A stretch of DNA of 34,100 nt from Acidobacteriota bacterium. GTDB lineage: Bacteria > Acidobacteriota > Thermoanaerobaculia > Multivoradales > J023. Shown here one piece after another: positions 6,759 to 34,100 of this stretch (position 1 is the stretch's first letter; each line of letters begins with the position of its first letter). The notes under the pieces were generated by a model that saw only the letters and a list, made by a program, of their open reading frames with translations, did no database searches and was not told where the DNA came from. The stretch covers positions 1-34,100 of the forward strand of contig RFGL01000139.1 in the NCBI GenBank assembly GCA_003697015.1. Direction: 5' to 3'. Position numbers and translations under genes: made by a program.

Positions 6759-6765
6759 GCTCATT

Positions 6766-15702: not shown

Positions 15703-16737
15703 ATGAAGACCCGCACCTTCACCATCTTCGCCCTCGCCCTGGCCGTCGTTCTGGCGTCGGCCGCCGTCGCTCAGGATTGGAAGGGACGCGGCCGCGTCCA
15801 GGGCCAGGTGTTGACCAAGGACGGCCAGCCGATCGAGGGCGCCACCGTCACCCTCTACTTCGGCGAGCCGGGGCATGGCCCGGAGGCCATCAAGACCAAG
15901 AAAAACGGCAAATGGGGCTATCTCGGCCTGACCGGCGGCAACTGGAACTTCGTCATCGAGAAGGACGGCTACGTGGCGGCCGAAGGCCAGCTGCCGATCT
16001 CCGAGTTCAAGCCGGCCTCCCTGGTGATCAACCTGCGCCCGGCGGAGGAGGCCGCCGCGCCCCTCGACGAGGAAGCGCAGGAGGCGCTGAGCGGCATCCA
16101 GAAGGCCAACGGCCTGCTCGCTCAGGGGCAATACGCCGAAGCCCGTGCCCTCTACCAAGCGGCGATCCCCCACCTCGACGACGAGAGCCGGCCGCTGGTC
16201 GAGCGCGGCGTCGCCCAGACCTACCTGCTGGAAGAGAATTGGGACGCCGCCCTCAGCACCCTCGAGCAGGTGCTGGCGGCGTTGCCGGAGGATCTCGAAT
16301 CGTTGAAGATGAAGGCCCAGGCCCTGGGCCACAAAGGGGACGTCGACGCCGCCATCCAGACCCTCGATCAGCTGGCCGCCGCCGGCGACGTCGCCGCCCT
16401 GCAGTTGATCATCAACCTGCTCCTCGACGCCGGCCGTGAAGAGGAGGCCCAGGCCTACATGGCGAAGCTGCCGGAGGGCACCAAGGTCGACCCCAACGCC
16501 CTGCTCAACACCGGCATCGACAAGTACAACGCCAACGAGCTCGACTCCGCCCTGTCCTACTTCGACCGCGCGGCGCAGGAGAACCCCGACCTGCCCGACG
16601 TCTACTACTACCGCGGCCTGGCCTACCTGGCGAAGGGCGACGTCGAGGCGGCCAAGGCCGACTTTCAGAAGCTGCTCGACCTGGCGCCGGACCACCCCAA
16701 GGCGGGGGAGGCGAAGGAGTTCCTGGCGGCCCTCTGA
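15703..16737 (+). CDS. Secreted carboxypeptidase-regulatory-like / TPR protein
   Basis: The protein is 344 residues; the ATG is preceded by GGAGAG. Residues 1-24 form a signal peptide (KTRTFTIFALALAVVLASA, cleaved near AVAQ). Residues 31-113 are a carboxypeptidase-regulatory-like beta-sandwich (GQVLTKDGQPIEGATVTLYF, then GKWGYLGLTGGNWNFVIEKD), here the N-terminal part of a soluble protein rather than of a receptor. Residues about 125-344 are TPR helices (GLLAQGQYAEARALYQAAI; LSYFDRAAQENPDLPDVYYY; LAKGDVEAAKADFQKLLDL). It probably acts as a periplasmic or surface binding scaffold. Its TGA overlaps the next gene's ATG (TGATG at 16735-16739), so it is the first gene of the operon with the four sulfatase-fold lipoproteins and is translationally coupled to them. 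Confidence 0.85.
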   Translation: MKTRTFTIFALALAVVLASAAVAQDWKGRGRVQGQVLTKDGQPIEGATVTLYFGEPGHGPEAIKTKKNGKWGYLGLTGGNWNFVIEKDGYVAAEGQLPISEFKPASLVINLRPAEEAAAPLDEEAQEALSGIQKANGLLAQGQYAEARALYQAAIPHLDDESRPLVERGVAQTYLLEENWDAALSTLEQVLAALPEDLESLKMKAQALGHKGDVDAAIQTLDQLAAAGDVAALQLIINLLLDAGREEEAQAYMAKLPEGTKVDPNALLNTGIDKYNANELDSALSYFDRAAQENPDLPDVYYYRGLAYLAKGDVEAAKADFQKLLDLAPDHPKAGEAKEFLAAL

Positions 16738-18857: not shown

Positions 18858-21040
18858 GCCCCGCGCTCCGCCGCACCGCCTTCGTCGTCGCCGTCGCCCT
18901 CGCCGCCTGCGGCCGCCCGTCGCCCGACGGTGCCGGGCTCGCCGGCGCCTTCCCCGGCGCTCCGGTGGTGCTGATCTCGATCGACACCCTGCGCGCCGAC
19001 CGCCTGCCGGTTTACGGCTACGGCGGCGTCGCCACGCCGGCGATCGACGCCCTGGCAGCCGACGCGGTGGTCTTCGAGCACGCCTACACCCACGTCCCCC
19101 TGACCCTGCCGGCCCACTCCTCCCTGCTCTCCGGCCTGCTGCCCGGCGAGCACGGCGTGCGCGACAACGCCGGCTACCGCCTGCAGGCGGCGGACGGCCC
19201 CTACCTGCCTTCCCTGCTGGCCGCCGCCGGCTACGCCACCGGCGGCTTCGTCTCGGCCTTCGTCCTCGACCGTTCCACCGGCGTGGCGGCGGGCTTCGAC
19301 CGCTACGACGACCGCATCGTCCGCGCCGGCGCCCACGGCATGGGGGACGTGCAGCGCCCGGGGACCGAGACCCTGGAGGCGGCGCAGGCCTGGCTCGACG
19401 AGGTCGCCGGCCGGCCGTTCTTCCTCTTCCTCCACCTCTACGAGCCCCATACTCCCTACACCCCGCCGGAGCCCTTCGCCAGCCGTTACGCCGAGCATCC
19501 GTACGACGGGGAGATCGCCGCCGCCGACGCCCGCGTCGGCGAGCTGCTCGCCCGTCTGCGGGCGGACGGCACCTACCAGCGGGCGCTGATCGTGCTGGTC
19601 TCCGACCACGGCGAGGGATTGGGGGACCACGGCGAGATCGAGCACGGCATCCTGCTCTACCGCGAGGCGCTCCACGTGCCCTTGCTGCTCAAGCTCCCCG
19701 GCGGCCGGCTGGCCGGGCGGCGGGTGGCGTCGCCGGCCCAGCTCGCCGACGTCGCCGGCACCGTCCTCGAGCTCCTCGGCAGGGAGGTGCCGGCCGCCCT
19801 CGCCGGCCGCAGCCTGCTTCCCCTGCTGGCGCCGTCGCCGTCGCCGCGGCCGATCTACGCCGAGACCTACCACCCGCGCTTGCGCTACGGTTGGAGCGAG
19901 CTCCTGTCGCTGATCGACGGCCGATTCCATTACCTCCAGGGGCCGGATCCGGAGCTCTACGACCTGCGGACCGACCCGGAAGAGCGCCACAACCTCCTGC
20001 GCCGCGAGCGCCGGCGGCTGGCCGCGATGCGGGAGGCGCTGCAGGGATTCGTGCGGCCGCTGGCGCGGCCGGGGGAGGTCGACGCCGAGACCGCCGCGCG
20101 CCTCGCCGCCCTCGGCTACGTCGCCACCGCCGCGCCGGAGCCCGAGGGGCCCCTGCCCGACCCCAAGGCGCGGGTCCACCTGCTGGCGCGGCTGGCGGCG
20201 GCGCGCCAGCTCGACGCCGCCGGCCGTCACGCCGAGGCGGCGCAGCAGCTGCGCGTCCTGCTCGGCGAGGAGCCGCGGATGACCGACGCCTGGATCGCCT
20301 ACGGCCTGGCCCTGGTGCATCTCGGGGAGACGCGGCCGGCGATCGACGCCTACGAGCGGGCGCGCCAGCTCGGCGGACCGACGCCGCAGCTCGTGGTGCG
20401 GCTGGCGACCCTCTACGTCGCCGCCGGCGAGGCCGAGCGGGCGGTGGCGCTGGTCGAGGAAGCGGTAGCCCGCGGCCTCGACACGCCCGCGGTCGTCGCC
20501 CGCCTGGGCATCAGCCTGGTCGAGGCCGGCCGGCCGCGGCAAGCGATCGAGCAGCTGGCGCCGCGGGCGACCGACCCCGAGGTGCAGAACGCCCTCGCCT
20601 TCGCCCACTACCGCCTCGGCCAGCTGGCCGAGGCCGAAGCCCTCTACCGCCGGGTGCTGGCCGCCGATCCCGGCGACGCCAAAGCCCTCGAAGGGCTCGC
20701 CGTCCTCGCCCTTCACCGGCGCCGGCCGGCGGTGGCGCGGGAGCGCGCCCGCCGCGCCCTGGAGCTCGACGACCAGCTGCCGATCGCCTGGAACACCCTC
20801 GGGGTGGCGGAGCAGCTGCTCGGCCGTACCGACGCCGCCCTCGCCGCCTGGCAGCGCGCCGTCGAGCTCGATCCGCGGATGCTCGACGCGCTGTACAATC
20901 TGGGGGTGACGGCGGCCGCCGCCGGGCGTCGCGCCCTGGCGCGCGACAGCCTCGAACGCTTCATCGCCGCGGCGCCGGGCACGCCGTACGCCACCGACGT
21001 CCCGCGCGCCCGGGACCTGCTGCACAACTTGGGGCCGTGA
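18854..21040 (+). CDS. Sulfatase-fold/TPR lipoprotein, paralogue 2
   Basis: The protein is 728 residues with a lipobox ending at Cys19 (VALAAC). The catalytic domain (about 36-430) shows VVLISIDTLRADRLP (Asp44), THVPLTLPAHSSLLSG (Thr84 at the nucleophile position), FLHLYEPHTPYTPPEPF and LVSDHGEGLGDHGEIEHG. A conserved joint follows (VDAETAARLAALGY), then PLPDPKA and about ten TPR helix pairs up to the end (LPIAWNTLGVAEQLLGRTDA near the C-terminus). It is closest to paralogue 3 along its full length and shares a 26-base identical stretch with it. The ATG overlaps the previous stop (ATGA), and its own TGA overlaps the next GTG. It is expected to be anchored by lipid, outer-membrane sorted (no Asp after Cys), and to act on an ester substrate outside the cytoplasm. 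Confidence 0.86.
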   Translation: MSPALRRTAFVVAVALAACGRPSPDGAGLAGAFPGAPVVLISIDTLRADRLPVYGYGGVATPAIDALAADAVVFEHAYTHVPLTLPAHSSLLSGLLPGEHGVRDNAGYRLQAADGPYLPSLLAAAGYATGGFVSAFVLDRSTGVAAGFDRYDDRIVRAGAHGMGDVQRPGTETLEAAQAWLDEVAGRPFFLFLHLYEPHTPYTPPEPFASRYAEHPYDGEIAAADARVGELLARLRADGTYQRALIVLVSDHGEGLGDHGEIEHGILLYREALHVPLLLKLPGGRLAGRRVASPAQLADVAGTVLELLGREVPAALAGRSLLPLLAPSPSPRPIYAETYHPRLRYGWSELLSLIDGRFHYLQGPDPELYDLRTDPEERHNLLRRERRRLAAMREALQGFVRPLARPGEVDAETAARLAALGYVATAAPEPEGPLPDPKARVHLLARLAAARQLDAAGRHAEAAQQLRVLLGEEPRMTDAWIAYGLALVHLGETRPAIDAYERARQLGGPTPQLVVRLATLYVAAGEAERAVALVEEAVARGLDTPAVVARLGISLVEAGRPRQAIEQLAPRATDPEVQNALAFAHYRLGQLAEAEALYRRVLAADPGDAKALEGLAVLALHRRRPAVARERARRALELDDQLPIAWNTLGVAEQLLGRTDAALAAWQRAVELDPRMLDALYNLGVTAAAAGRRALARDSLERFIAAAPGTPYATDVPRARDLLHNLGP
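20777..20802 (+). repeat. 26-bp direct repeat, copy in sulfatase-fold paralogue 2
   Basis: These 26 bases, coding for the TPR segment LPIAWNTL, are identical to 22999-23024 in paralogue 3, which suggests recent duplication or gene conversion between the two genes. Confidence 0.85.
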
Positions 21041-23265
21041 GCACCTGGACGAGACATCCCCTGCGCCGGCGGCCCGCCGCCTTCGCCCTGCCCGCCGTCC
21101 TCGCCCTGCTGGCGCTGGCCTGCCAGCGACCGCCGTCGCCGGCGGTGCGGCCGCAGGCGCCGGTGGTGCTGATCTCGATCGACACCTTGCGCTCCGACCG
21201 CCTGCCGGCCTACGGCTACGACGGCGTCGCCACCCCGGCGCTCGACGCCCTGGCGGCGGACGGCATCGTCTTCGAACGGGCCTACGCCCACGTGCCCCTC
21301 ACCCTGCCCTCCCATGCCTCCCTCCTGAGCGGCCTGCTGCCGACCGAGCACGGCGTGCGCTACAACGTCGGCTACGACCTCGAGGACGCCGCCGAGCTGC
21401 CCTACCTGCCGGCGTTGCTCAACGCCGCCGGCCACGCCACCGGCGGCTTCGTCTCCTCCTTCGTGCTGCGCCGCGACACCGGTCTGGCGCGGGGCTTCGA
21501 GGTCTACGACGACGATCTGCCGCGCGCCGGCGACGAGCTCGCGCCGGTCGCCGGCTCGGCCATCGGCAACGTCCAGCGCCGCGGCGCCGACACCCTGGAG
21601 CGGGCCCGGGCGTGGCTCGCCACCGTCGCCGAGCGGCCCTTCTTCCTCTTCTTCCACATCTACGAGCCCCATTCGCCCTACGAGCCGCCGTCGCCCTTCG
21701 CCGAGCGCTACGGCGATCCCTACGACGGCGAGGTGGCGGCGGCGGACGCGGTGATCGGCGGCCTGCTCGACGAGCTGCGGCGGCTCGGCGTCTACGACCG
21801 CGCCCTGGTGGTGCTGCTCTCCGACCACGGCGAGGGGCTCTTCGACCACGGCGAGCCGGAGCACGGCCTGCTGCTCTACCGCGAGGCCTTGCAGGTGCCG
21901 CTGATCCTCAAGCTGCCGGGCGGCGAGCTGGCGGGCAGCCGTTCGCCGGTGCCGGTGCAACTGGTCGACGTCGTGCCGACGGTGCTCGAGCTCCTCGGCC
22001 GGCCGCTCCCTCAAGGCCTCGCCGGCCGTTCCCTGCTGCATTCGCTGGCGCCCGGGGCGCCGCCGCGGGCGCTCTACGCCGAGACCTACGTGCCGCGCCT
22101 GCACAAGGGGTGGAGCGAGCTGCTGTCGGTGATCGAGGGCGACTACCACTACATCCAAGGGCCCGATCCCGAGCTCTACGACCTGGCCGCCGATCCCGCC
22201 GAGCGCCACAACGTGCTGCGGCGGGAGCGGCGGGTCCTGGCGCGCTTGCGCGCCGCGCTGGACGACGTCGAGCAGCGCTTCGCCAACCCCGGCGCGGTCG
22301 ACGCCGAAACCGCCGCCCGTCTCGCCGCCCTGGGCTACGCCACCCTCTCCTCGCCGCCGCCGGCCGCCGGCCCGCTGCCCGACCCCAAGGCCGAGATCGC
22401 CCGTCTCGAGGGCCTGTGGCGCGGCCAGCATCTGATCAACCGCGGCGAGCTCGAAGCGGCGGTCGAGGTCCTCGCCCCCTTCGTCGCCGCCCATCCCGAG
22501 ATCCAGGAAGGCTGGCTGTCCTACGGCTTCGCCCTCGACCGCCTGGGGCGGAGTACGGCGGCGCTGGAGGCCTTCGAGCAGGCGGCGCGGCGCGGTGAGG
22601 TCAGCGGCGCGGTGGCGATGCGCTTGGCCCATCTCTACGCCGCCGCCGGCCGCCCCGGCGATGCCGTCGAGGTGCTCGAGCGAGCGCTGGCGAGCGGTCT
22701 CGATCGTCACCGGGTGCTGCACCAGCTGGCGCGGGTGCTGCTCGACGCCGGCCGGCCGGCGGAGGTGGTCGACCGCCTGGCGGCGGAGGACGGCGATCCG
22801 GCGCTGCTCAACGCCCGCGCCGCCGCCTACTTCCAGCTCGGCAGGCTGCAGCGGGCGGCGGACGACTACCGGCGGGTGCTGGCGCTCCAAAGCGACAACC
22901 CCAAGGCCCTCGAAGGGCTCGGTGCCGTCGCCCTGCGCGCCGGCCGGGCGCAGGAGGCGCGGGAGTTGCTGCGCCGCGCCCTGGCCCAGGACGAGCACCT
23001 GCCGATCGCCTGGAACACCCTCGGCGTCGCCGAGCACGCCCTCGGCCACCTCGAGGAGGCCCTCGCCGCCTGGCAGCGCGCCCTGGCGCTCGACGCCGCG
23101 ATGTACGACACCCTCTACAACCTCGGCGTCACCGCCGCCCGCGCCGGCCGCCGGCAGCTCGCCCTGGACGCCCTCAGGCGCTTCGTCGCCGAGGCTCCAC
23201 CGCGCACCTACGGCGACGACGTCCGCCGTGCCCGCCAGCTGCTGGCGGAGCTGGAGACCTCCTAG
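21037..23265 (+). CDS. Sulfatase-fold/TPR lipoprotein, paralogue 3
   Basis: The protein is 742 residues from a GTG at 21037 that overlaps the previous stop (GTGA). The frame is open far upstream only as an Arg-rich shadow. The start gives a positively charged N-terminus and a lipobox ending at Cys29 (LALAC). The catalytic domain has VVLISIDTLRSDRLP (Asp49), AHVPLTLPSHASLLSG (Thr89), FFHIYEPHSPYEPPSPF and LLSDHGEGLFDHGEPEHG. The joint VDAETAARLAALGY and PLPDPKAE precede TPRs such as LPIAWNTLGVAEHALGHLEE. It matches paralogue 2 in every module. An extra loop (EVYDDDLPRAGDELAPVAGS) sits between the substrate-side strands. Presumed surface hydrolase with a TPR partner-binding half; substrate unknown. 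Confidence 0.86.
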   Translation: MSTWTRHPLRRRPAAFALPAVLALLALACQRPPSPAVRPQAPVVLISIDTLRSDRLPAYGYDGVATPALDALAADGIVFERAYAHVPLTLPSHASLLSGLLPTEHGVRYNVGYDLEDAAELPYLPALLNAAGHATGGFVSSFVLRRDTGLARGFEVYDDDLPRAGDELAPVAGSAIGNVQRRGADTLERARAWLATVAERPFFLFFHIYEPHSPYEPPSPFAERYGDPYDGEVAAADAVIGGLLDELRRLGVYDRALVVLLSDHGEGLFDHGEPEHGLLLYREALQVPLILKLPGGELAGSRSPVPVQLVDVVPTVLELLGRPLPQGLAGRSLLHSLAPGAPPRALYAETYVPRLHKGWSELLSVIEGDYHYIQGPDPELYDLAADPAERHNVLRRERRVLARLRAALDDVEQRFANPGAVDAETAARLAALGYATLSSPPPAAGPLPDPKAEIARLEGLWRGQHLINRGELEAAVEVLAPFVAAHPEIQEGWLSYGFALDRLGRSTAALEAFEQAARRGEVSGAVAMRLAHLYAAAGRPGDAVEVLERALASGLDRHRVLHQLARVLLDAGRPAEVVDRLAAEDGDPALLNARAAAYFQLGRLQRAADDYRRVLALQSDNPKALEGLGAVALRAGRAQEARELLRRALAQDEHLPIAWNTLGVAEHALGHLEEALAAWQRALALDAAMYDTLYNLGVTAARAGRRQLALDALRRFVAEAPPRTYGDDVRRARQLLAELETS
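22999..23024 (+). repeat. 26-bp direct repeat, copy in sulfatase-fold paralogue 3
   Basis: Identical to 20777-20802 in paralogue 2. The two copies lie at the same place in the two TPR domains. Confidence 0.85.
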
Positions 23266-23266
23266 C

Positions 23267-25429
23267 ATGAGCCGTCGCCCCCTGCGTCTCGCAGCGCTCC
23301 TCGTTCTCGTCCTCGTCGCCGGCTGCCGCCGCGGCGGCGACCTCGACGCCACGTTCCCCGGCGCGCCGGTGATCCTGATCTCGATCGACACCCTGCGCTC
23401 CGACCGCCTGCCGGCCTACGGCTACGGCGGCGTCGCCACCCCGGCGATCGACGCCCTGGCGGCGGACGGCGTACTCTACGAACGCGCCTACACCCACGTC
23501 CCCCTCACCCTGCCCGCCCACGCCTCGCTCCTCACCGGCCTGCTGCCGACCGAGCACGGGGTGCGCGACAACCAGGGCTACGACCTCGAGCTCGGCGACG
23601 ACGTTCCCTACCTGCCGCGCCTGCTGCACGACGCCGGCTACGCCACCGGCGCCGCGGTCTCCGCCTTCGTGCTGCGCGCCGCCACCGGCCTGGGAGCGGG
23701 CTTCGACTTCTACGAGGACAGCCTCGAGCAGGGCGACGCCGAGAGCATCGGCGAGGTGCAGCGGCCGGGGCAGGTCACCCTCGACCGCACCCTGGACTGG
23801 CTCGAGTCGGTGCGCGACCGGCCGTTCTTCTTGCTCTTCCACCTCTACGAGCCCCACACCCCGTACCACCCGCCCGAGCCCTTCGCCTCGCGCTACGACG
23901 ACCCCTACGACGGCGAGATCGCCGCCGCCGACGCGGTGGTCGGCAGGCTCCTCGACCACCTGCGCCGGCTCGGCCTCTACCGCCGCTCGATCATCGTCCT
24001 GCTGTCCGACCACGGCGAGGGCCTGGGCGACCACGGCGAGCGCGAGCACGGCATCCTGCTCTACCGCGAGGCGCTGCAGGTGCCGCTGATCCTCAAGCTT
24101 CCGGAGGCCCGCCTGGCCGGCCGTCGCAGCGCCCATCCGGCGCAGCTGATCGACGTCGTACCCACCGTCCTCGATCTCCTCGGTCAGCCGCGGCCGGATC
24201 GGCTCGCGGGCAGCTCCCTGCGCGCTCTCCTCGCCGGCGAAGCCCCCGAGCGGGCGCTCTACGCCGAGACCTACTACCCCCGCCTGCACATGGGTTGGAG
24301 CGAGCTGACGTCGCTGATCGAAGGTCGTCTGCACTACATCGCCGGACCCGATCCCGAACTCTACGACCTGGTCGCCGACCCGGCCGAGCGGCGCAACGTC
24401 CTCGCCGAGGAGCGCCGCGCCCTGAGCCGCATGCGCGCCACCCTGGCGGGGCTCCAGCGCGAGCTGGCGGCGCCCTCGGCGGTCGATGCGGAGACCGCCG
24501 CCCGTCTCGCCGCCCTGGGCTACGCCGGCGGCGGCAGCCTCACCCCGGCCAGCGGCCCGCTGCCCGACCCCAAGGCCGAGGTCCACACCCTCGAGCGCCT
24601 GGGGAAGGCCCACCGGCACATGGGCCGCGGCGCCTACGCCGAGGCGCTCCAGATCCTGCGGCCGCTGGTGGAGCAGAACCCGCGCATGGCCGACGCCTGG
24701 ATGGCGGTCGGGGTGTGCTTCAAGCGGCTGGGCCGGCCGCGACCGGCGATCGAGGCCTACCGTCAGGTGGCGGCGATCCGCGGCATGCGGCCCAACCTCG
24801 CCCTGATCATCGCCGAGCTCTACCGCCAGAGCGGCGATCTCGAGCAGGCCCGATCCCACGCCGAGCTGGCGCTGGCGGAAAACCCGGTCGACGCCCACCT
24901 GCAGCTCTCCGAAGTGGCGCGCGAGGCGGGCGACCTCGGCGCCGCCGAGCGCCACGCCCGCCAGGCCCTCGCCGCGCGCGATGGGGCCGTCGCTCCCCTG
25001 GTGCAGCTGGCCAGGATCCAGATCCTGCGCGGCGACCTGGAAGCGGCGCGGCAGACCGTCGACCGGGCGCTGGCGGAGCTGCGCCGCGACGGCGCCGAGC
25101 CCCCTCCCGGCCTCGACTTCGTGCGCGGCGACCTCCTGGCCCGCGAAGGTCGTGCCGACGAAGCCGTCGCCGCCTTCCGCGCCGAGATCGAGCGCTTCCC
25201 CAAGAACCTCGACGCCCACGCCCGCCTGGCCTTCCTGCTGGCGGTCGAAGGGCGGCCGGACGAAGCCCTCCAGACCCTCCGCGCCATGGTCGAGCACAAC
25301 GACCAACCCCCGGCCTACGCCGCCGCCGTCAAGACCCTGCGCGGCCTGGGGGACGAACGCCAGGCCCAGGCCCTCCTCGACTACGCCCGCCAGCGCTTCC
25401 CCGACGCCGAGGTGCTGGCCGGTCTGTGA
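23267..25429 (+). CDS. Sulfatase-fold/TPR lipoprotein, paralogue 4
   Basis: The protein is 720 residues; its ATG is one base after the previous stop, with GGAG ten bases upstream. The lipobox ends at Cys20 (LVAGC), followed by Arg-Arg. The catalytic domain is very close to paralogues 2 and 3: VILISIDTLRSDRLP (Asp41), THVPLTLPAHASLLTG (Thr81), FHLYEPHTPYHPPEPF, LLSDHGEGLGDHGEREHG, and the joint VDAETAARLAALGY. After PLPDPKAE the TPR half departs from its siblings: it lacks the IAWNTLGVAE repeat and instead has other TPR units (ELYRQSGDLEQARSHAELAL; GDLLAREGRADEAVAAFRAE). The catalytic half is therefore conserved while the putative partner-binding half differs. It is the last gene of the operon; 262 bases follow before the next one, with no clear terminator. 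Confidence 0.86.
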   Translation: MSRRPLRLAALLVLVLVAGCRRGGDLDATFPGAPVILISIDTLRSDRLPAYGYGGVATPAIDALAADGVLYERAYTHVPLTLPAHASLLTGLLPTEHGVRDNQGYDLELGDDVPYLPRLLHDAGYATGAAVSAFVLRAATGLGAGFDFYEDSLEQGDAESIGEVQRPGQVTLDRTLDWLESVRDRPFFLLFHLYEPHTPYHPPEPFASRYDDPYDGEIAAADAVVGRLLDHLRRLGLYRRSIIVLLSDHGEGLGDHGEREHGILLYREALQVPLILKLPEARLAGRRSAHPAQLIDVVPTVLDLLGQPRPDRLAGSSLRALLAGEAPERALYAETYYPRLHMGWSELTSLIEGRLHYIAGPDPELYDLVADPAERRNVLAEERRALSRMRATLAGLQRELAAPSAVDAETAARLAALGYAGGGSLTPASGPLPDPKAEVHTLERLGKAHRHMGRGAYAEALQILRPLVEQNPRMADAWMAVGVCFKRLGRPRPAIEAYRQVAAIRGMRPNLALIIAELYRQSGDLEQARSHAELALAENPVDAHLQLSEVAREAGDLGAAERHARQALAARDGAVAPLVQLARIQILRGDLEAARQTVDRALAELRRDGAEPPPGLDFVRGDLLAREGRADEAVAAFRAEIERFPKNLDAHARLAFLLAVEGRPDEALQTLRAMVEHNDQPPAYAAAVKTLRGLGDERQAQALLDYARQRFPDAEVLAGL

Positions 25430-25691: not shown

Positions 25692-26780
25692 ATGAAATCG
25701 GCTGCGAGAGAATCCGCACCGAGCAAAGACTTCGAAGGCTTCAAGAGCCACGCCGAGCCGCAGATCCGCGACGGCTTCCTCGACTGGAAGGAAGAGCGCG
25801 GTCTGATGAAAAAGGCGCTCGAGTTCGGCCTCTCCGGCGACGAGGCACAGCTCTGCCTGATCGCGTTGTGCGAGAGTTCCGGGGCGACCATCGAGCGCCT
25901 GGCGGCGGAGGAGTTTCGCCGGCTGGTGCGCTGCGCCGTCGCCGATCGCTTTCTCGATCGGAACGAGCATCAGGCGCTCGAGGGATACGGCCTCAAGCTG
26001 TTCGAGCGGCGGCCGGAGCGCGGCGCGATGGTCGATGCCCTGATCCGCGAGGTCCTGGCCGCGCAGCACGCCCTGAGCGAAGCGGAGCTCCGCCGCGACG
26101 TCGAGCGCCGCCTCGCCACCCTCGGCCCGCCGGAGAAGCCCCTGCGGCCGGCCGACTGGCGGGCGGTGCGCGAGCACCACCTGCGACGGGCGCGGGAGCG
26201 CGGGGTCGACCTGGAGGAGAACGACGTCGGAGCGATCCTCGACCGCTGTCTCGCCGATTCCCACCGTACCCTGAAGCGGCCGTCGCCCCGCCGCCGCTGG
26301 CTGCTCGCGGCCGCCGTTCCGCTGGTGGCCGCTCTGGCGCTCGGCGCCTGGCTGTTCAAGCCGGCGGAGGTCGTCAGCTTCCCCGTCCCGCCCTGCGACG
26401 TGGCCTGTGAGCAGGAGCTCAAGGATCTCTTCAACCGCATGACCGCCAGCGCCGCCGGCCGTCGCTTCATCGCTCCGGCGGACGACAGCCTGCTCTTCTG
26501 GTCGGGGCGACTGGACGAGCGCTGCATCCCCTACACCGAGCTGACGCCTGAGGAGCGCCGGCTGGCGCGGGAGCGCGAGCCGGCGTGGCGATGGTGCGAG
26601 CACCCCGACCGCGAGCGCCTCTTCGAGCAGGGCGAGGCCTACTACGTCGAGCGACTGGAGAATCTGGCCAGCGGTGCCGATCCTTGCGATCCGGTGCGCC
26701 GTTGCCTGCAGCTGAAGGCGAGCAGCAACCGCTGCCTCGCCCTGGCGGAGGAGCTCGGCTGCCGGAAGGACGGTTCATGA
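25692..26780 (+). CDS. One-pass membrane protein with duplicated helical N-domain and Cys-rich exported domain
   Basis: The protein is 362 residues and I do not recognise a named family. Residues 1-195 are charged and helical. Two segments look duplicated, IRDGFLDWKEERGLMKKALE (25-44) and VADRFLDRNEHQALEGYG (83-100). This D-x-FLD-x-x-E pattern recalls TerB-like helical domains, a weak comparison. RPSPRRR (197-202) precedes a membrane helix at 203-222, so by the positive-inside rule the N-domain is cytoplasmic. The exported C-terminal domain has eight cysteines (235, 239, 278, 302, 332, 338, 348, 357), enough for four disulfides. The start at 25692 has only a weak ribosome site. The stop overlaps the next ATG (ATGA), making it the first gene of the Hsp70-type operon. 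Topology suggests a sensor or adaptor linking the periplasm to the chaperone (inference). Confidence 0.75.
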   Translation: MKSAARESAPSKDFEGFKSHAEPQIRDGFLDWKEERGLMKKALEFGLSGDEAQLCLIALCESSGATIERLAAEEFRRLVRCAVADRFLDRNEHQALEGYGLKLFERRPERGAMVDALIREVLAAQHALSEAELRRDVERRLATLGPPEKPLRPADWRAVREHHLRRARERGVDLEENDVGAILDRCLADSHRTLKRPSPRRRWLLAAAVPLVAALALGAWLFKPAEVVSFPVPPCDVACEQELKDLFNRMTASAAGRRFIAPADDSLLFWSGRLDERCIPYTELTPEERRLAREREPAWRWCEHPDRERLFEQGEAYYVERLENLASGADPCDPVRRCLQLKASSNRCLALAEELGCRKDGS

Positions 26781-28285
26781 GCGCGCGCGACGAGCGGCCG
26801 CTGGTGGTGCTCGGCGGTGGCGTCATCGCCTGGGGACGGCCCTCGGGCGCGGTCGCCTTCGGCGCACCGTGGATCGCCGGGCGCTTTCGCGACGAAATCG
26901 CCCTCGACGGCGAGGAACCGCGGCTCGATGCCGCTTCCCCCGGCGTCTGGGTGCGGCTCGGCGACGAGATCGAAGGCGAGGCGGCGCGCGCCCACGACGC
27001 GGTGCGCCGGACCTTCCTCCGGCCGGCGTCGAGGCGGCGCCGGCCGAAGGTCAAGATCGAGGCCCGGGCGACGGTGGCGACGCCGCCGATCCTGCCTTCC
27101 TTCGCCGCCCTCGCCGCCGCTCAGGTGCGGTGGATCGAGAAGCAGCTCGGCGCCGCCGGGGTGGTAGTGGCGCCGCGCGACTGGCTGCGCCTGCCGCGCG
27201 GCCGCGAGCTGCTCAGCGCCTTCGCCGAGAGGGGATGGCAGATGACCCCCCTCGACGAGGCGCTGCCCGCCGGCGGCCGGTGCTACGCCGGCGGCAGCGA
27301 TCTCTGGCTGCGCTTGCGGGCGGCGGAGCTTGACCTGGTGCTGCCCAACGGCCCCCTGGCCAACCGGGCCCTGGCCGTGGCCGACGGCATCCTCGAGCGC
27401 ATCGTGCGCCACGCCCTGCCCCCCGCCACCGCCGAGCGCTGGTGGCGGGAGGAGGAGCCGAAGAGCGGCTGGTTCGCCCGCCAGCAGCTCCTCCACGCCC
27501 TTCTCGCGGCGGCCCGCGACGGCGGCGGCAAGGTGGAGATCGATCCGAAGTCGTCCGTCCTCTTCCGCTTCTCGGGCCGCCCGGCGTTGACCGACTTCGT
27601 CGAGCTGGCGAAGCGGCGGCTGGTGATCGACCTGCCGCCGGTGGGCTCCCCGGAGAGCTGGTGGCGTCAGGCCGGCGAGCCCGGCGGGATGCTCGCGCAG
27701 GGCATCCCCTGGCAAGGCCGGTTCGCCTTGCTCAAAGGCGCGGCGGCCGACGAGCTGCGAGCGGTGGCGAGCGGCCTGGGAGCCGAGGTCGACGAGATCG
27801 ACCCGGCGGCGATGGCGGATGCCCGCGCCCGTGCCACCTCGATCCGGACCCTGCTCGAGGCGGAGAAAGACCTGCTGATTACGAATCGCCCGGCGGTTCC
27901 GGCCGCCGCCGGCGGGACGGAGGCCGAGGCGGAGGAGGACGGAGCGGAGGTCGAGGCGGACGAAGAGCCCTTCCACGCCGCTCCGCCGCCCCCGAAAGCG
28001 GAAGGACCGCCGCCGGTCGAGGAGCCGCCCCAGCCCGCCGTACCGCCCGATCTCGAGGGCTACGATCCCCACCTGCTGGTCGTCGACCTGCCCCATCGGC
28101 CGAGCCAGGTGCGGGTGCACTACGGCGACCGGCAGCTCACCGCCGGCAGCCTGCGCTACGTCAAGGACCAGGACGGGGCCAAGGTCTACCGCCTCGAGGG
28201 GGTGACGATCCCCCGCGGTGCCCTCCTGCGGGTGGAGATCGATGCCCTGAGCGAGCAGGCCGGCGAGGCCGAGGACGCCGGATGA
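26777..28285 (+). CDS. Unrecognised protein of the Hsp70-type operon
   Basis: The protein is 502 residues and has no signal peptide or membrane segment; I do not recognise its family. The start at 26777 overlaps the preceding stop (ATGA), and the open frame further upstream is Arg-rich shadow. The N-terminus is a short hydrophobic, Gly-rich strand (RPLVVLGGGVIAWG). Residues to about 368 are mixed alpha/beta with paired Trp motifs (AERWWREEEPKSGWF, PESWWRQAGEPGG). Residues 369-428 are an acidic then Pro-rich linker (TEAEAEEDGAEVEADEEP). Residues 429-502 form a small beta-rich domain (LLVVDLPHRPSQVRVHYG; KVYRLEGVTIPRGALLRVEI). Its place between the membrane protein and the Hsp70-like ATPase, with overlaps at both ends, argues for fixed stoichiometry and a shared complex. 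A client-binding or adaptor role is a guess. Confidence 0.75.
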   Translation: MSARDERPLVVLGGGVIAWGRPSGAVAFGAPWIAGRFRDEIALDGEEPRLDAASPGVWVRLGDEIEGEAARAHDAVRRTFLRPASRRRRPKVKIEARATVATPPILPSFAALAAAQVRWIEKQLGAAGVVVAPRDWLRLPRGRELLSAFAERGWQMTPLDEALPAGGRCYAGGSDLWLRLRAAELDLVLPNGPLANRALAVADGILERIVRHALPPATAERWWREEEPKSGWFARQQLLHALLAAARDGGGKVEIDPKSSVLFRFSGRPALTDFVELAKRRLVIDLPPVGSPESWWRQAGEPGGMLAQGIPWQGRFALLKGAAADELRAVASGLGAEVDEIDPAAMADARARATSIRTLLEAEKDLLITNRPAVPAAAGGTEAEAEEDGAEVEADEEPFHAAPPPPKAEGPPPVEEPPQPAVPPDLEGYDPHLLVVDLPHRPSQVRVHYGDRQLTAGSLRYVKDQDGAKVYRLEGVTIPRGALLRVEIDALSEQAGEAEDAG

Positions 28286-31200
28286 GCGCCCGGCCGGCTC
28301 CCCGCCAGGCGCCCGCGCCGCCGCAATGCCCGCAATGCGCCCTGGCGGTCTCGCCGCTCCATCATTACTGCGGCGCCTGCGGCGAGGCGTTGGTGAAGCT
28401 GGAGTGGCAGCTCGAGGGCGAGAAGGACTGGCCGAGCAGCCCGCAGCTCGCCCTGGGGCCGGACATGGCGGCGGTGCGCCTGCGCATGCGCAATCAGGGG
28501 GTGGTGGCGGCGGGGGTGGTGCTGCGGCCGGAGTCCGAGGCCGCCCTGCCCCCGTGGGTCGACGCGAAGCGCTTGCAGAAGCTCCAGCCCCAGGTGCTGG
28601 ATCCGGGTGCGGAGCTCACCCTCGAGATCCCTCTCCTGCGCCGCGAGCTGCAAGCCCTCTTCCGCCGCAAACGCAGCGCGGAGAGCGAGCCCGAATTGCA
28701 GGCCAGGCTCGACTTCCTCACCAACCTCATCGAGGCGCGCGCCGGCGTCTGGGGCTACCGCATCTGCTCCATTTCGCTGGTGGTGGCGCGCCAGCCGTGG
28801 CTCAGCCCGGCGCGGGTCTACTTCCCCTTCCTGCCGCGCGAGCTCCTGGCCGCCGGCGTCGAGCAGGGGGTGCGCATCCACAACGAGGCGGTGACGTCGA
28901 TCGACGTCCGCCGCCACCCGCCGCGGGAGGACGTAACCCCCACCCCGCCGGGCTTCGCCCGCCTCTCCGCCGCCGAGCTGCTGGGCTCGCCGCCGTCCGA
29001 GGAGGCGGAGAGCATCCCCAACGGCCGGAGCATGGCGGAGGTATTGCTGCTGCGCCTCCAGTCCGACGCCGCGGCCGAGGACGACAAGCCCGCCTGGTTC
29101 TCCTTCTTCGTCGACTACGAATTCGAGCTCGACGACCGCCGGCAGCGCCTCGCCTGCCAGCTGCGCGGCGTCGTCGGCCGCGCGCCGCGGCTGGAATTCC
29201 TCGGCACCGAGATCACCGTGCTCGAAACCGAAGTCGACCGGGGCGCTACCGCCACGCTGCGCAATCCCGGCCAGGTGCCGGTCCAGGTGACCGCCGTCGA
29301 GATACGCCGCCAGGAGGGAGAGGCGCTGCCTGAGGGGCGCGACTGGCTGGAGGTCGAAGGGATCGGCGAGCTCCTCGCTCCCGGGGAGGAGCGCCAGATC
29401 ACGCTGCGCATTCATCCCGAGAGACGACCCTTCGCCGAGCGCGGCGAGGAGTGGAGCCGCCGCATCCTGCGCCTGGAGCACGACGGCTTCGCCCCCGCCG
29501 GCGGCGAGGCCGCCGCCGAGCTGGCGATCAACGTCCAGCTGGGGGTCTACGAAACCCGGAGCGTCGGCATCGACTTCGGCACCACCAGCTCGGTGGTGGC
29601 GCTCTTCGGCGAAGACCGGACCCGCACCCTGATCCTCGACCACGAGCCGCAGGGGAGCGACAAGCTCAAATCCTTGATGTTCTACGACGACAATCGCCCG
29701 CAGGCTGAGGCGCCGGTGCCGTTCCGATTCGGCAGCGAGGCCCAGGACTCCGCCCTGGTCGCCCCGGCCAACGTGGTGCGCAGCATCAAGACCATGGTGG
29801 CCCGCGATCCGGATAGCGAGTACGTTTTCTTGCGCCGGCGGGGTGGTGGCCAGCGGTCCCTGGTGCGCTACAAGCCGCAGCAGCTCCTCAACTACTTCAT
29901 CGCCGAGCTCCGCCGCCGGGCGGAGGACGGGGTGGGCGAGCTCGATCTCGACGATCAGATGGCCCTCGAGCTCCAGGGACGCAACGTCAGCTTCGACGAG
30001 GCCTTCTTCAGCCATCCCGTTGCGGTGCCGGAGGGCATGAAGCGCGCCCTGATGCAGGCCGCCCAGCAGGCCCACATCAACGCCGCCGACGAGAGCGCGG
30101 AGGACTTCTTCCGCCATCGCTGCATCGACGAGGCGAGCGCCGCGGTGCTGGCCTACGTCTACCGGCGGGTGCGCGACGCCGTCGACCGCAGGGAGCCGTT
30201 GACCGACGAGGAGCCTCTGACCGACGAGGAGCGCATCCTGTGCTACGACATGGGGGGCGGCACCACCGACGTCGCCGCCGTCGCCCTGGGGGATTTCGCC
30301 GCCTACCTGAAGGGCGAGAAGAAGAAGGTCCAGGTCGAGCTCCTGGCTACCGCCGGCAGCAACTTCGGCGGCGACGATCTCGACGTGATCCTCGCCGAGC
30401 TGGCCCTCGAGGGCCTCGCACCCCAGGCCGAGAAGCAGGGCTCCCCCCTCGCCGTCGACGAGCTCCGCCGGGCCCTCAGGGCGCGTTCCTTCGCCATCTA
30501 CGAGCGCGACCTGCGCCTGCGTCGCCGCCGGCGGCAGGCCGGGGCGGCCGCGCCCACCCTTCATCACCAGGAGGGGGAGCTCGACGAGCAGCAGAATGCG
30601 GCCACGCTGATCTACAACGAAGCCAGCAGGATCCTGCACCACATCGAAGGGATCAAGCGCGAGCTGTCGTCCGCGGAGGAGGCCGAGTGGACGGCGGAGC
30701 GGGCCGTCGACTGGCCGCGGTTGGCGCCCCTCAGCACCGAAGCCAGGAGCGCCCTGTTGCGCGTGACCCTGCGGCGGGAGGACTTCGAGAAGCGCCTCGA
30801 GGAGCGTCTCGGTGAATGCCTTACCCTGCTCGACAACGTGGTGCGCCGGGCGGACTGGAAGTGGCCGCAGGTGACTCTGCTGCTCTTCACCGGCCAGAGC
30901 GTGCGGGTGCCGCGGGTGCGCGCGGCGGTCAAGGAGCACGTGGCGGAGCAGCGCGGCGGATCTCTCGCCGGCCTGGCGGTGATCGAGCCCGGCGACGGCT
31001 CGGGCTTCGACCCCAAGAGCTGCGTCGCCGAAGGGGCGGCGATCTGGGGCGCGATGCAGGACGAAGGCTGGCTGGAGATCCGCTATCCGAGCCTCGAGCG
31101 GCTGAGTTTCAGCCTCCAGCGCCGCCGCGGTCCGGCGCAATTCGAGACCGTCGCCGGCCTGCAGAAGGGGGAGAAGCTGCCGGCGGAAGGGGAGGTCGTC

Positions 31201-31362
31201 TTCAGCCGCAAGCAGAAGAAACTGGTCCTCTTCCGGGACCGGAAGGCCTACGTCGAATTCTCTTTTCCCGCCGCCGAGAGGCTGCGGATCCGCGCCTTGG
31301 GGCCGGCGGAATTCGTCGCCGAGGCCGGCGGCGAGGAGGTGAAGGGCATGGTGAAGCGATGA
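28282..31362 (+). CDS. Zinc-ribbon / beta-sandwich / Hsp70-like ATPase fusion
   Basis: The protein is 1026 residues, against about 640 for DnaK. Residues 16-33 are a zinc ribbon (CPQC, then CGAC: Cys16, 19, 30, 33). Residues about 45-420 are beta-rich, with at least one Ig/ASH-like sandwich (ATLRNPGQVPVQVTAVEIRR, then LLAPGEERQITLRIHPERRP). From 428 an Hsp70-type actin-fold ATPase follows: phosphate-1 loop VGIDFGTTSSVVALF, phosphate-2 loop CYDMGGGTTDVAAV (654-667), GGDDLD (DnaK GGEDFD), the adenosine-site strand LLLFTGQSVRVPRVRAAV (866 on), and FDPKSCVAEGAAIWGA. The last 100 or so residues look like a short substrate-binding beta domain without a helical lid. All nucleotide loops appear intact, so ATP-driven client binding is likely. 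The ATG overlaps the preceding stop and its stop overlaps the next ATG. Confidence 0.88.
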   Translation: MSARPAPRQAPAPPQCPQCALAVSPLHHYCGACGEALVKLEWQLEGEKDWPSSPQLALGPDMAAVRLRMRNQGVVAAGVVLRPESEAALPPWVDAKRLQKLQPQVLDPGAELTLEIPLLRRELQALFRRKRSAESEPELQARLDFLTNLIEARAGVWGYRICSISLVVARQPWLSPARVYFPFLPRELLAAGVEQGVRIHNEAVTSIDVRRHPPREDVTPTPPGFARLSAAELLGSPPSEEAESIPNGRSMAEVLLLRLQSDAAAEDDKPAWFSFFVDYEFELDDRRQRLACQLRGVVGRAPRLEFLGTEITVLETEVDRGATATLRNPGQVPVQVTAVEIRRQEGEALPEGRDWLEVEGIGELLAPGEERQITLRIHPERRPFAERGEEWSRRILRLEHDGFAPAGGEAAAELAINVQLGVYETRSVGIDFGTTSSVVALFGEDRTRTLILDHEPQGSDKLKSLMFYDDNRPQAEAPVPFRFGSEAQDSALVAPANVVRSIKTMVARDPDSEYVFLRRRGGGQRSLVRYKPQQLLNYFIAELRRRAEDGVGELDLDDQMALELQGRNVSFDEAFFSHPVAVPEGMKRALMQAAQQAHINAADESAEDFFRHRCIDEASAAVLAYVYRRVRDAVDRREPLTDEEPLTDEERILCYDMGGGTTDVAAVALGDFAAYLKGEKKKVQVELLATAGSNFGGDDLDVILAELALEGLAPQAEKQGSPLAVDELRRALRARSFAIYERDLRLRRRRRQAGAAAPTLHHQEGELDEQQNAATLIYNEASRILHHIEGIKRELSSAEEAEWTAERAVDWPRLAPLSTEARSALLRVTLRREDFEKRLEERLGECLTLLDNVVRRADWKWPQVTLLLFTGQSVRVPRVRAAVKEHVAEQRGGSLAGLAVIEPGDGSGFDPKSCVAEGAAIWGAMQDEGWLEIRYPSLERLSFSLQRRRGPAQFETVAGLQKGEKLPAEGEVVFSRKQKKLVLFRDRKAYVEFSFPAAERLRIRALGPAEFVAEAGGEEVKGMVKR

Positions 31363-32399
31363 GATGGTGGACGCTGCGGCTGGTGCTCGCCGCCGCGCTC
31401 TGGGCGACGGCGGTGCCGTCGCCGGCGTGGTCCCAGCCGCCGGACGAGCCGGCGGCCGGGCAGCAAGGCGAGCCGCCGCCAGGCGACGGCGCGACCGGCG
31501 TCGAGCCCGCCCCACCGCCGGCCGGCGAGGTCGCCGGAAACGGCGGCGACCTGGCCCGGGACGCCCGCCTGCTGGGGCGCATCGCGCGGCTGGAGAACGA
31601 GCTCATGGCGCTCGACGGGCGGGTGGCCTGGCTCAAGGGGCTGCTGTTGTTGGTGGCCGTCGGCCTGGCACTCGTGCTGTGGTTTGGCTGGCGGCGGTTG
31701 CGCGAGCTGGAGGCGTTGGTCCAGAACACCCGCGATTTGGTCCAGAACACCCGCGATACGGTGTTCCGCAGCGACTCGACCGAGGCGCCAGCGGCCCCTT
31801 CCGCGCCGGAGTACGTTCCGCCGCCCGCGGAGCCGCCGCCGGTCCCGGCGCCGGCCGCCCCGCCACCGCCGCCGTTGGACGTCGGCGAGCTGCTCGACGA
31901 GTTGCGCGGCGCCGCCGCCGAGCTCGCCCGCGGCTTCGCCAGCGCCGAGGTGCGGCAGCGCTTCGTCGAGGACTTCGGGGTGGCGGGGGAGGCGCGTCTC
32001 GAGCGCTACCGCCAGGCGTCGTCGCTCGACGACAGCGCCGTTCTGCGGCGGCAGTGGGTGGCTCCCGACCTGCTCAACGTGTTGAATCTGCTGGCCCGCT
32101 ACTACTCCCAGGCGGAGGCGGATCACCGCCACGGCCACGCTCCGGCGGCGGCCCTGGCGGAGAGGTTGCGAGCGCTGCTCTACGACCGTTTCGACGGCGC
32201 CTGCCGGCGCCGCGGCTGGTTCGCCCTCGACCCGGTGGTGCCCTTCGAGGACGTCTTCGACCCGCGGCGTCACAAGGGGATCGGCAGCCGGGCGATGCCG
32301 GGCTTCACCCACCGGGTGGTGGCGGTACGCGCCGTCGGCCTGCGCAACGCCGGGAGCGGCGAGCTGGAACGCAAGGCGGAGGTGCTCGTCGGTGCCTGA
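31359..32399 (+). CDS. Membrane-anchored protein with GrpE-like C-terminus
   Basis: The protein is 346 residues. Residues 1-26 form a signal-like segment (RWWTLRLVLAAALWATAVP, then AWSQ), followed by a Pro/Gly-rich stretch, a short coiled coil (65-92) and a membrane helix at 94-111 (GLLLLVAVGLALVLWFGW). The heptad-like repeat LVQNTRDLVQNTRD and a Pro-rich linker (142-175) follow. The C-terminal 150 or so residues are predicted cytoplasmic and helical and end in a segment that lines up with GrpE: CRRRGWFALDPVVPFEDVFD then PRRHKG (FDPxxH at 300-305), then VRAVGL and a closing ERKAEVLVG. In GrpE this is the wing that contacts DnaK and promotes nucleotide exchange. The adjacent Hsp70-like gene makes that reading attractive; the match is by eye and short. 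Its ATG overlaps the previous stop. Confidence 0.78.
   Translation: MRWWTLRLVLAAALWATAVPSPAWSQPPDEPAAGQQGEPPPGDGATGVEPAPPPAGEVAGNGGDLARDARLLGRIARLENELMALDGRVAWLKGLLLLVAVGLALVLWFGWRRLRELEALVQNTRDLVQNTRDTVFRSDSTEAPAAPSAPEYVPPPAEPPPVPAPAAPPPPPLDVGELLDELRGAAAELARGFASAEVRQRFVEDFGVAGEARLERYRQASSLDDSAVLRRQWVAPDLLNVLNLLARYYSQAEADHRHGHAPAAALAERLRALLYDRFDGACRRRGWFALDPVVPFEDVFDPRRHKGIGSRAMPGFTHRVVAVRAVGLRNAGSGELERKAEVLVGA
31716..31757 (+). repeat. Perfect 21-bp tandem duplication
   Basis: Two identical 21-base units encode LVQNTRD twice, directly after the membrane helix of the GrpE-like protein. The insertion keeps the reading frame and a seven-residue helical period. Confidence 0.92.
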
Positions 32400-34089
32400 A
32401 CGTCGAGCTGCTGCCAGCCCCGCGGTCTACGATCGGGACAACCGGCGTTTCGTGGTGCCGTCCGCTTGCCCCTATCCGGATTGTGCCCGCGAGGTCGAAC
32501 CGGCCAACGAGCGCCATGCCCTGGCCTGGTGCGAGCACTGCCAGCGCCCCTACGAGGTGGTGCGGTTCGAGCCCGGCGGCGGCGCGCCGGCGGTCGAGCT
32601 CCACCGTCGCCCGCAGAGCCTCTATTGCAACTACACCGGCCAGCCGCTCAGAAACCACTCGCTCCTCGACTGGGGCGAGGCCGGCGGCGGCCCCGAACGC
32701 ACCTTCGCCGTCGCCGACGGCCGCAACGCGATCTTCGGGCCGCCGAAGGCCGAAGTGACGATCCGCCTCGTCGCCGGCTGGCCGCCGGTGAACGTGCTGG
32801 GGGAGCTGGAGGATCGCTACGACTACGTCACCTCCATGTCGGTGGTGCGGGGTCAGGTGGTGGCGGCGACCGCCCGCGGGCGCTTCGCCATCTTCGACGC
32901 CGAGAGCGGGCGCGCCCGCCTCGAGCGGCCGCTGGAGTGGCCCGGCCTCGCCCCCGATCCGCGGAAGGTGGATGAGGCGGTGCGCCAGCCGCCGGCCTTC
33001 CGTGGCACCCAGGCGGTATTGGTGGCACCGCGGCAGGCCCTCTTTCGCGATCTCAAGAACAGGCTCCTCGGCCGCCGCGACGAAGGCTCGGCCGGGGCTC
33101 CGACGCCGCGCCCGCGGCTGGTCGACGCCGGCGGCCGGCGGCGCGTCTTTCTCGGCCCGCCCCTCGGGGTCGACGTCGCCGATCCCGGCCGCATCGATCC
33201 CCAGGCGCCGGCGGAGAGCTTCTTCTGCCTGCTCGAAGGCCGGCCGGCGGCGGCGGCGATCGAAGACGCGACCCTGCGTTTCTTCACCCTCGACGGCGAG
33301 CAGGTGGCGCAATGCGAGGCGCCGGCGATCGCCCGGCCGCCGCTCTTCGATCGCCGGCTGAAGCGGGTGGTGTGGGTGGATTGCCAGGGCCTCGTCTACA
33401 GCCTGCCGGCGGAGCAGCTGCCGGCGGCGCTGGCGGGGGGCGAGAAGAATCTTGCGGTGGCGTCGTGCGTACCCTCGGAGATGCTCGCCCTCGCCCCGTC
33501 CACCCGGCCGCTGATGGCGGTGAGCCGCGATGCCGGCGGCCGCTCCGAGCTGTGGCTCCTGGCCCAGGACGCCGAGGGCCGGGCGAACTTCTACCGCACC
33601 GCCCTCGATCCGCTGTTCGCCGATCCGAGCGCGGTCTGGGCGTGGCGCGTCGACCCGCCGCCGCCGGGGGATCTGGGGCGCGTCCAGGGCTTCGCCATCG
33701 GCGCCTCGGCACGCGGCGAGGACCCGACCGCCCAGCTGCTGGCCCTGGCCACCGACCGCCAGGTCCTCTCCCTGCAGCGCGCCAACCCCACCGCCACCTC
33801 CCGCCATCCCCTGCGCGCCTCGGACTACCTCGCCGATCAGGGCACCAAGGAGCCGCCCCTGCTGTCGCCGGCGGGGATCATCGCCCGCCTGCCCACCGGT
33901 CTCTACCTCGACTCCCAGGGCCTCGACTGGGGCGGCTACCGCAGCAAGGTGGCGATCCCGGGTGCCTACGACCAGCCCCAGGGCCTGGCGATGTTCGGCC
34001 GCCGCATCTTCGCCGGCCACCGCCGCCAGGTGCACTGCTTCGAGCTGGTGCCGGAGCCGGCGGGGGACGGAGCGGAGGCGGGGTCATGA
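32392..34089 (+). CDS. Zinc-ribbon protein with propeller-like repeats
   Basis: The protein is 565 residues from a GTG at 32392. GGAGG lies nine bases upstream and the start overlaps the previous gene by eight bases. Residues 26-50 form a zinc ribbon (CPYPDC, then WCEHC: Cys26, 31, 47, 50), and a further Cys79 sits in SLYCNYTG. From about 130 the sequence shows short beta segments spaced like propeller blades, such as VVRGQVVAATARGRFAIFDA, RVVWVDCQGLVYSLPAE and LLALATDRQVLSLQRANP; no Trp-Asp signature is strong enough to assign WD40 or PQQ. No signal peptide or membrane helix is seen, so it is probably cytoplasmic. A second zinc ribbon in the operon, after that of the Hsp70 fusion, hints at shared partner recognition. 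Its stop overlaps the next ATG (ATGA). Confidence 0.8.
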   Translation: MPERRAAASPAVYDRDNRRFVVPSACPYPDCAREVEPANERHALAWCEHCQRPYEVVRFEPGGGAPAVELHRRPQSLYCNYTGQPLRNHSLLDWGEAGGGPERTFAVADGRNAIFGPPKAEVTIRLVAGWPPVNVLGELEDRYDYVTSMSVVRGQVVAATARGRFAIFDAESGRARLERPLEWPGLAPDPRKVDEAVRQPPAFRGTQAVLVAPRQALFRDLKNRLLGRRDEGSAGAPTPRPRLVDAGGRRRVFLGPPLGVDVADPGRIDPQAPAESFFCLLEGRPAAAAIEDATLRFFTLDGEQVAQCEAPAIARPPLFDRRLKRVVWVDCQGLVYSLPAEQLPAALAGGEKNLAVASCVPSEMLALAPSTRPLMAVSRDAGGRSELWLLAQDAEGRANFYRTALDPLFADPSAVWAWRVDPPPPGDLGRVQGFAIGASARGEDPTAQLLALATDRQVLSLQRANPTATSRHPLRASDYLADQGTKEPPLLSPAGIIARLPTGLYLDSQGLDWGGYRSKVAIPGAYDQPQGLAMFGRRIFAGHRRQVHCFELVPEPAGDGAEAGS

Positions 34090-34100
34090 GGTCGCCCGGC
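34086..34100 (+). CDS. Start of a further gene of the Hsp70-type operon, cut by the window edge
   Basis: An ATG at 34086 overlaps the preceding TGA in the ATGA arrangement used throughout this operon. Only five codons (MRSPG) are visible, so nothing can be said of the product. Confidence 0.5.

Follow-up and report, generated by a model that had tools for sequence, protein, structure and literature searches.

Gene content and layout of the operon

The window analyzed here is the whole of a 34,100-nucleotide contig, RFGL01000139.1, from the Acidobacteriota bacterium assembly GCA_003697015.1, which we refer to as C290. Its right end carries an operon encoding an Hsp70 fusion protein and a membrane-anchored GrpE-like protein, with relatives in other genomes that also contain genes for von Willebrand A (VWA) and tubulin-like proteins. 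Five complete genes, g1 to g5, and the first bases of a sixth, g6, lie on the plus strand, as do all of the operon features described below. C290 ends exactly at position 34,100 and the operon is thereby cut, leaving its 5' half. From g1/g2 to g5/g6, consecutive genes overlap by 4, 4, 4, 8, and 4 bases (ATGA, ATGA, ATGA, GTGCCTGA, and ATGA). An earlier sequence-only reading of this DNA had reported overlaps of 4 to 8 bases among five complete genes and the start of a sixth, which we confirm. Its descriptions of the proteins also hold: a one-pass Cys-rich protein (g1), an unrecognized protein (g2), the Hsp70 fusion (g3), an anchored GrpE-like protein (g4), and a zinc-ribbon propeller (g5). Family libraries recognize only g3 among the operon proteins.

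The g3 gene (28282..31362) encodes 1026 amino acids that combine a zinc ribbon, an Ig-like beta-sandwich region, and a lidless Hsp70. The zinc ribbon (residues 16-34, 28327..28383) has two CxxC knuckles in a CxxC...CxxC pattern (at residues 16 and 30) and is followed at about residues 40-420 (28399..29541) by the beta-sandwich region, which is beta-rich in the structural model. The Hsp70 nucleotide-binding domain (29560..31065) is identified by Pfam, by the family alignment, and by profile and fold matches to the PDB. The C-terminal beta domain (31084..31359) corresponds to the Hsp70 substrate-binding beta subdomain, with no helical lid after it. Pfam HSP70 matches g3 at 1.3e-14, and the NCBIfam DnaK/HscA models score far below their cut-off. 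Among 11 sequences of the g3 family, D431, G433, T434, K503, E617, and D656 are invariant and T661 is nearly so. The family profile aligns to DnaK from residue 3 to about residue 500 (best E 1.6e-65, to a DnaK), a span that comprises the nucleotide-binding and substrate-binding beta domains and lacks the lid. The AlphaFold model of g3 (mean pLDDT 71.5) matches DnaK/BiP at 6e-24.

Directly downstream, g4 (31359..32399) encodes a 346-residue protein with a membrane anchor and a GrpE-like end. Its N-terminal half consists of a hydrophobic leader, a predicted transmembrane (TM) helix (residues 89-107, 31623..31679), and a Pro-rich linker, and its C-terminus, predicted to be cytoplasmic, resembles the GrpE beta-domain (residues 269-346, 32163..32396). 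The long N-terminal dimer helices of GrpE are missing from g4, and the protein is not predicted to be soluble. The g4-family profile matches nothing in the PDB except GrpE chains (best 3.7e-5), g4 aligns to the anchored-GrpE family at 7e-4, and two g4 relatives, those of genomes G267 and G361, score above the Pfam threshold for GrpE. The weak point of the assignment is that neither g4 itself nor its nearest relative has a Pfam GrpE match. The following gene, g5 (32392..34089), encodes 565 residues with zinc-ribbon cysteines and then a beta-propeller, and no TM helix; the profile of its family hits designed propellers (2e-17) and BamB (1.5e-8).

The 502-residue product of g2 (26777..28285) is predicted to be cytoplasmic, and in two other genomes, too, its gene immediately precedes that of the Hsp70 fusion. 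It has no family match in Pfam, PHROGs, NCBIfam, or PADLOC, and profile comparison with J domains shows no similarity. Structure prediction, which the sequence-only reading had proposed as a check, was informative for g3 and gave a poor model for g2 (AF2, pLDDT 44.5, no PDB match <0.2). A by-eye idea that g2 may have a degenerate actin/Hsp70 fold found no support in profile comparisons or in the poor model; the positional g2 counterpart in G278/Desulfonema gives a weak Hsp70-fold hint (profile comparison, E=0.015).

The first gene, g1 (25692..26780), encodes 362 residues with a single hydrophobic helix (residues 204-222), preceded by arginines and followed by a Cys-rich, predicted exported tail; its N-terminal half is probably cytoplasmic. 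The sequence-only reading stated that no HPD motif appears in the complete genes. This was incorrect, since g1 has an HPD tripeptide at residues 304-306 (26601..26609), within the predicted exported tail. Comparison with the J domains of the same genome reached only E=0.038 and a probability of 1.4%, and we rejected g1 as a J-domain protein; the simplest reading of the tripeptide is a chance occurrence. No counterpart of g1 is found in any other operon copy examined, and there are no full-length relatives among 149 genomes of the window's class. Since g1 is not conserved in related operons, its membership in the system is doubtful, and it is at best a lineage-specific addition.

Recurrence of the gene set in other genomes

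Distant g3 relatives within the window's class led to genomes G278, G343, and G344, and a Tubulin_2 search added G361 (G-numbers denote genomes, and L-numbers denote fetched loci). A first scan of genome contigs with g3 gave no confirmed relative, probably because g3 is too diverged. A scan of genome contigs with an alignment of six tubulin sequences returned 80 loci. We know of no function for the FtsZl1/Tubulin_2 proteins, which are widespread relatives of tubulin.

The closest locus, L167, comes from a Myxococcota metagenome-assembled genome (MAG). Here g2, g3, g4, and g5 are followed, unbroken on one contig, by genes for a VWA protein, a small membrane protein (STM), and a tubulin-like Tubulin_2/FtsZl1 protein (TUB). 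Window proteins are 29-41% identical to their L167 counterparts, with g2 at 29%, and g5 matches the L167 copy at 2.5e-61. A g2 homolog adjoins g3 upstream in both L167 and L168 (matches of 5.7e-12 and 4.4e-5), and a C-terminal fragment of g2 lies upstream of g3 at a contig end in L159. The neighborhood comparison around the Hsp70 fusion that had been proposed earlier was borne out for g2-g3-g4-g5, which recur in order in L167, and not for g1, which has no counterpart in the copies examined.

In G278, G343, G344, and G361, the genes for the Hsp70 fusion, the anchored GrpE-like protein, the zinc-ribbon propeller, VWA, STM, and Tubulin_2 follow one another in this order, with a weak STM match in G361 and an extra protein between the Hsp70 fusion and the GrpE-like protein in G278. 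G267, more distant within the same phylum, encodes, in sequence, the propeller, VWA, STM, Tubulin_2, an ankyrin protein, an Hsp70, and an anchored GrpE. The module set is also present in L106, L082/L171, and Desulfonema magnum (L083/L170), whose strain 4be13 is cultured and has a complete genome, in which the set is spread over about 30 kb.

For 12 of the 80 tubulin loci, the fetched flanks contain Hsp70 relatives, and these 12 belong to the Myxococcota, Acidobacteriota, Thermodesulfobacteriota, Latescibacterota, Gemmatimonadota, and Pseudomonadota. The Hsp70 match in L082 is weak, but its contig also carries a true fusion (L171). When mapped on a 73-row tree of the tubulins, the Hsp70 label requires 9 changes versus a shuffled mean of about 14.6; none of 500 shuffles was as low, a clustering across phyla that is inflated by near-copies. 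The paired Hsp70s of G311 and those of G051, G116, G129, G130, G171, and G249 proved to be of ordinary or different types and were set aside.

Several of the related Hsp70 fusions have features of their own. The Ig-like regions of those in L092, L027, and L106 show weak, sub-cut-off matches to ASH/HYDIN/Cep192-type domains and DUF1573, which may reflect general Ig similarity. Eukaryotic ASH/HYDIN/Cep192-type domains occur on microtubule structures. The fusions of G267 and L106 have secondary Pfam matches to MreB and FtsA. The G267 fusion (L031:9382-12576) opens with ~60 residues of J-domain-like layout, followed by a zinc ribbon. This start carries LRKYNSKK in place of HPD, and its alignment is no more than suggestive of a degenerate J domain (E=0.014, probability 3%).

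Contig C50 of G278 encodes a single protein (L025:3458-7009) that joins TIR_2, HATPase_c_4 of the Schlafen/RecG type, a zinc ribbon, Ig-like sequence, and a lidless Hsp70 of the g3 type, and that also matches PADLOC pAgo models. It is a paralog of g3 and possibly a relative from a conflict system. By eye, genes for TerD-like and TerB-like proteins and a cation exchanger were noticed near g2-g3 in one locus (L168:11322-13616) and near STM-TUB in another (L080:19142-21070), hinting at a link between Ter stress genes and the system.

The probable downstream genes on contig C483

Since the loci in G278, G343, G344, G361, and G267 all include Tubulin_2, a Tubulin_2 gene was predicted in the window's own genome. 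Exactly one such protein was then found (PF13809, 1.6e-60), on C483, a separate contig of 6,939 bases. The genes on C483 encode, in order, the C-terminus of a VWA-like membrane protein, a VWA protein, STM, and Tubulin_2, and the last three are each 44% identical to their L167 counterparts (VWA 43.9%). The VWA protein retains MIDAS-type residues, with DYSGS as its DxSxS motif, and matches its family HMM at 1.5e-167, an HMM that includes this very sequence; in G267 the Pfam VWA_2 match is weak (1.4e-3). The GGTGSG loop of the tubulin-like protein is intact. The encoding gene (L039:4-3798) runs off the end of C483, and beyond its tubulin-like and helical parts the protein has a C-terminal GYF_2 domain (7.1e-6).

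On C290, the first 15 bases of g6 (34086..34100) would, by synteny, begin a gene for a VWA-type membrane protein that putatively continues on C483. Because L167 has all seven genes in one run that matches both contigs, C483 very likely continues the C290 operon.

Profile searches placed the four J domains of this genome on contigs C135, C67, C184, and C316, with a canonical DnaK adjoining a DnaJ on C135. No DnaJ or J-domain match was found on C290 or C483, in agreement with the earlier observation that the operon has no visible J-domain gene.

Comparison with known systems

Makarova and Koonin (2010) described FtsZl1/vWA operons and predicted that they act in membrane remodeling (PMC2875224). 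The gene set shares with these operons a Tubulin_2/FtsZ-like protein with a long C-terminal part, a MIDAS-type VWA protein, and TM proteins. A Ser/Thr kinase, a frequent but not obligatory partner in the published operons, lies upstream in G278 and was not seen in the window operon or on C483. DnaK/Hsp70 is unmentioned in the main text of PMC2875224, whereas here the Hsp70 fusion, the anchored GrpE-like protein, and the zinc-ribbon propeller are regular members. Conversely, the operon genes examined include no recognized counterpart of the distinct P-loop GTPase or of the OmpA proteins of the published operons, which are likewise frequent there without being obligatory.

Kaur et al. (2020) described membrane-linked conflict systems built on DO-GTPase and GAP1-N2 and containing zinc ribbons, with tubulin plus vWA and HSP70 plus GrpE as separate, non-overlapping themes (PMC7159879). 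Our set shares with them tubulin, vWA, HSP70, and GrpE as well as zinc ribbons and the membrane location, but here the tubulin and HSP70+GrpE sets occur together, the GTPase/GAP1 core is missing, and the phyla differ. DO-GTPase2 was detected in only one of the nine genomes with the system, the window's own, where it is on another contig. GAP1-N2 was found in none of the nine, with a positive control genome. For DO-GTPase1, none of the 10 genes at the G278 locus gave a match, and no genome-wide search was made for it. Judged by its genes, the set appears to cross FtsZl1/vWA operons with Kaur-type systems and to fall outside the DO-GTPase/GAP1 class, because the defining core is lacking.

Relative to DnaK-DnaJ-GrpE, the set retains the Hsp70 ATPase residues, the substrate-binding beta domain, and the GrpE beta-domain. 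It differs in its lidless Hsp70, an operon without a J protein, a zinc-ribbon/Ig-like front end, and an exchange factor fixed to the membrane. CoCoNuT Type III-A/CnuD systems (PMC11090510) also encode large fusions with Hsp70-like domains and have operons that include VWA proteins and zinc ribbons, but these are McrBC-derived restriction systems, and no McrB/McrC or nuclease was recognized here. The combination of parts exceeds the versions published in openly accessible papers.

Proposed function and alternative explanations

The composition of the gene set is well supported. On the basis of sequence comparison, the window probably contains the 5' half of an envelope-associated FtsZl1/VWA operon with its own Hsp70 cycle. 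The sequence-only reading had proposed a separate chaperone-like machine at the inner membrane. A distinct recurring set with an Hsp70 and an anchored GrpE-like protein does exist, but that proposal misses the center of the system, because VWA, STM, and FtsZl1 are its constant partners elsewhere.

As to mechanism, we infer an ATP-driven remodeling of a membrane-docked tubulin-like assembly. The VWA domain would face the periplasm and read an envelope signal. The membrane proteins would relay this signal to the tubulin-like protein in the cytoplasm, and the latter would assemble or change state at the membrane. The g3 protein would bind the assembly through its zinc-ribbon/Ig region and remodel it with ATP. 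Nucleotide exchange on g3 would be restricted to the membrane by the tethered GrpE domain of g4, with the g5 propeller serving as a scaffold and g2 perhaps as a J-like stimulator or adaptor. A bolder version would be a chaperone-driven, membrane-docked cytoskeletal switch present in at least six phyla, in which a polymer of the tubulin-like protein is remodeled, under periplasmic VWA control, by a lidless Hsp70 whose Ig-like domains are possibly of the ASH/HYDIN type, with exchange by tethered GrpE and g2 in place of the J protein. We regard this version as speculative and rather unlikely to hold in full.

Several observations weigh against an operon of this kind. In L159, g5 directly follows g3 with no g4 between them, and in two genomes (L079/L080) STM-TUB lies apart from g2-g3. 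Most FtsZl1/VWA loci in the Pseudomonadota, Ignavibacteriota, and Cyanobacteriota, including those of Janthinobacterium and Pseudomonas, have no Hsp70 within fetched reach, so Hsp70 is not essential to all FtsZl1/VWA systems. Polymerization of FtsZl1 is not established (PMC2875224), and the ends of C290 and C483 have no sequence overlap, their link being synteny.

The last of these points bears on whether the tubulin and VWA genes of C483 form an unrelated locus, with the window operon ending shortly after g5. In two MAGs, STM-TUB is located away from the g2-g3 contig as far as it is visible, which would fit such a break. The seven-gene run with the same partners in L167, the opening of C483 inside a VWA-like gene where g6 should continue, the 44% identities to L167, and the absence of any other Tubulin_2 locus found in the genome make this highly improbable. 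A stand-alone inner-membrane Hsp70 machine, with redox sensing by g1 and with g1 or g2 as a J substitute, is scarcely more probable. It draws on the Cys-rich tail of g1, on the conservation of g2 beside g3, and on the lack of a J-domain gene on C290 and C483, and it is largely contradicted by synteny: none of the related operons examined includes g1, for which the class also offers no full-length relative; VWA, STM, and FtsZl1 are the partners that are conserved; and g2 has no J-domain similarity. The envelope redox sensing and the J-replacing g1 of the sequence-only reading are unsupported because g1 is not conserved; of the proteins suggested to replace the J protein, g2 is conserved, without support for that role.

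The Hsp70 fold of g3 might instead act as an actin-like partner or anchor of a tubulin-like filament, comparable to FtsA for FtsZ, rather than as a chaperone. The shared cluster with a tubulin-family protein in G278, G343, G344, G361, and G267, the secondary MreB/FtsA matches, and the missing lid are all compatible with this. We consider it improbable, as HSP70 outscores all other matches by a wide margin in every case, the substrate-binding beta domain is present, and the GrpE exchange-factor domain encoded next to it is what an Hsp70 cycle, rather than an actin filament, would call for. A stronger competitor, still on the unlikely side, is a biological-conflict system of immunity or cell suicide as described by Kaur et al. 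(2020), which would sense envelope invasion and use NTP-driven assembly as its effector. Their GTPase-centric systems combine tubulin with vWA or HSP70 with GrpE, together with a membrane link and zinc ribbons (PMC7159879), and the g3 paralog in G278 is fused to TIR_2 and HATPase_c_4 and has the pAgo matches. This explanation is weakened by DO-GTPase2 missing from eight of nine genomes and GAP1-N2 from all nine, by the lack of a convincing PADLOC match for the core proteins tested (best E 0.014), and by the absence of a recurring recognized nuclease or toxin gene in the operon.

For the FtsZl1/VWA operon with an Hsp70 cycle, the co-occurrence means that one branch of FtsZl1 is accompanied by an Hsp70 of its own and by a GrpE fixed in the membrane, which provides a concrete and testable set of partners, and Desulfonema magnum 4be13 is a cultured carrier of the set. 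Should the tubulin-like protein prove to be the target of this Hsp70, bacteria would have an Hsp70 devoted to a cytoskeleton-like assembly, one that apparently operates with no J protein.

Other features of the window

A plasmid-borne origin of the operon was rejected, since PLSDB contains no g3 relatives. Directly upstream of the operon, at 16737-25429, are four consecutive proteins that appear by eye to be of the sulfatase type. They share a DTLR-D-RLP-YGY motif and are apparently tandem paralogs. Farther upstream, at 2276-11907, three minus-strand proteins have in common the pattern VVEVEVPV..V....G.P(V/I)(K/R)GLT and appear to form an exported, lineage-specific family.

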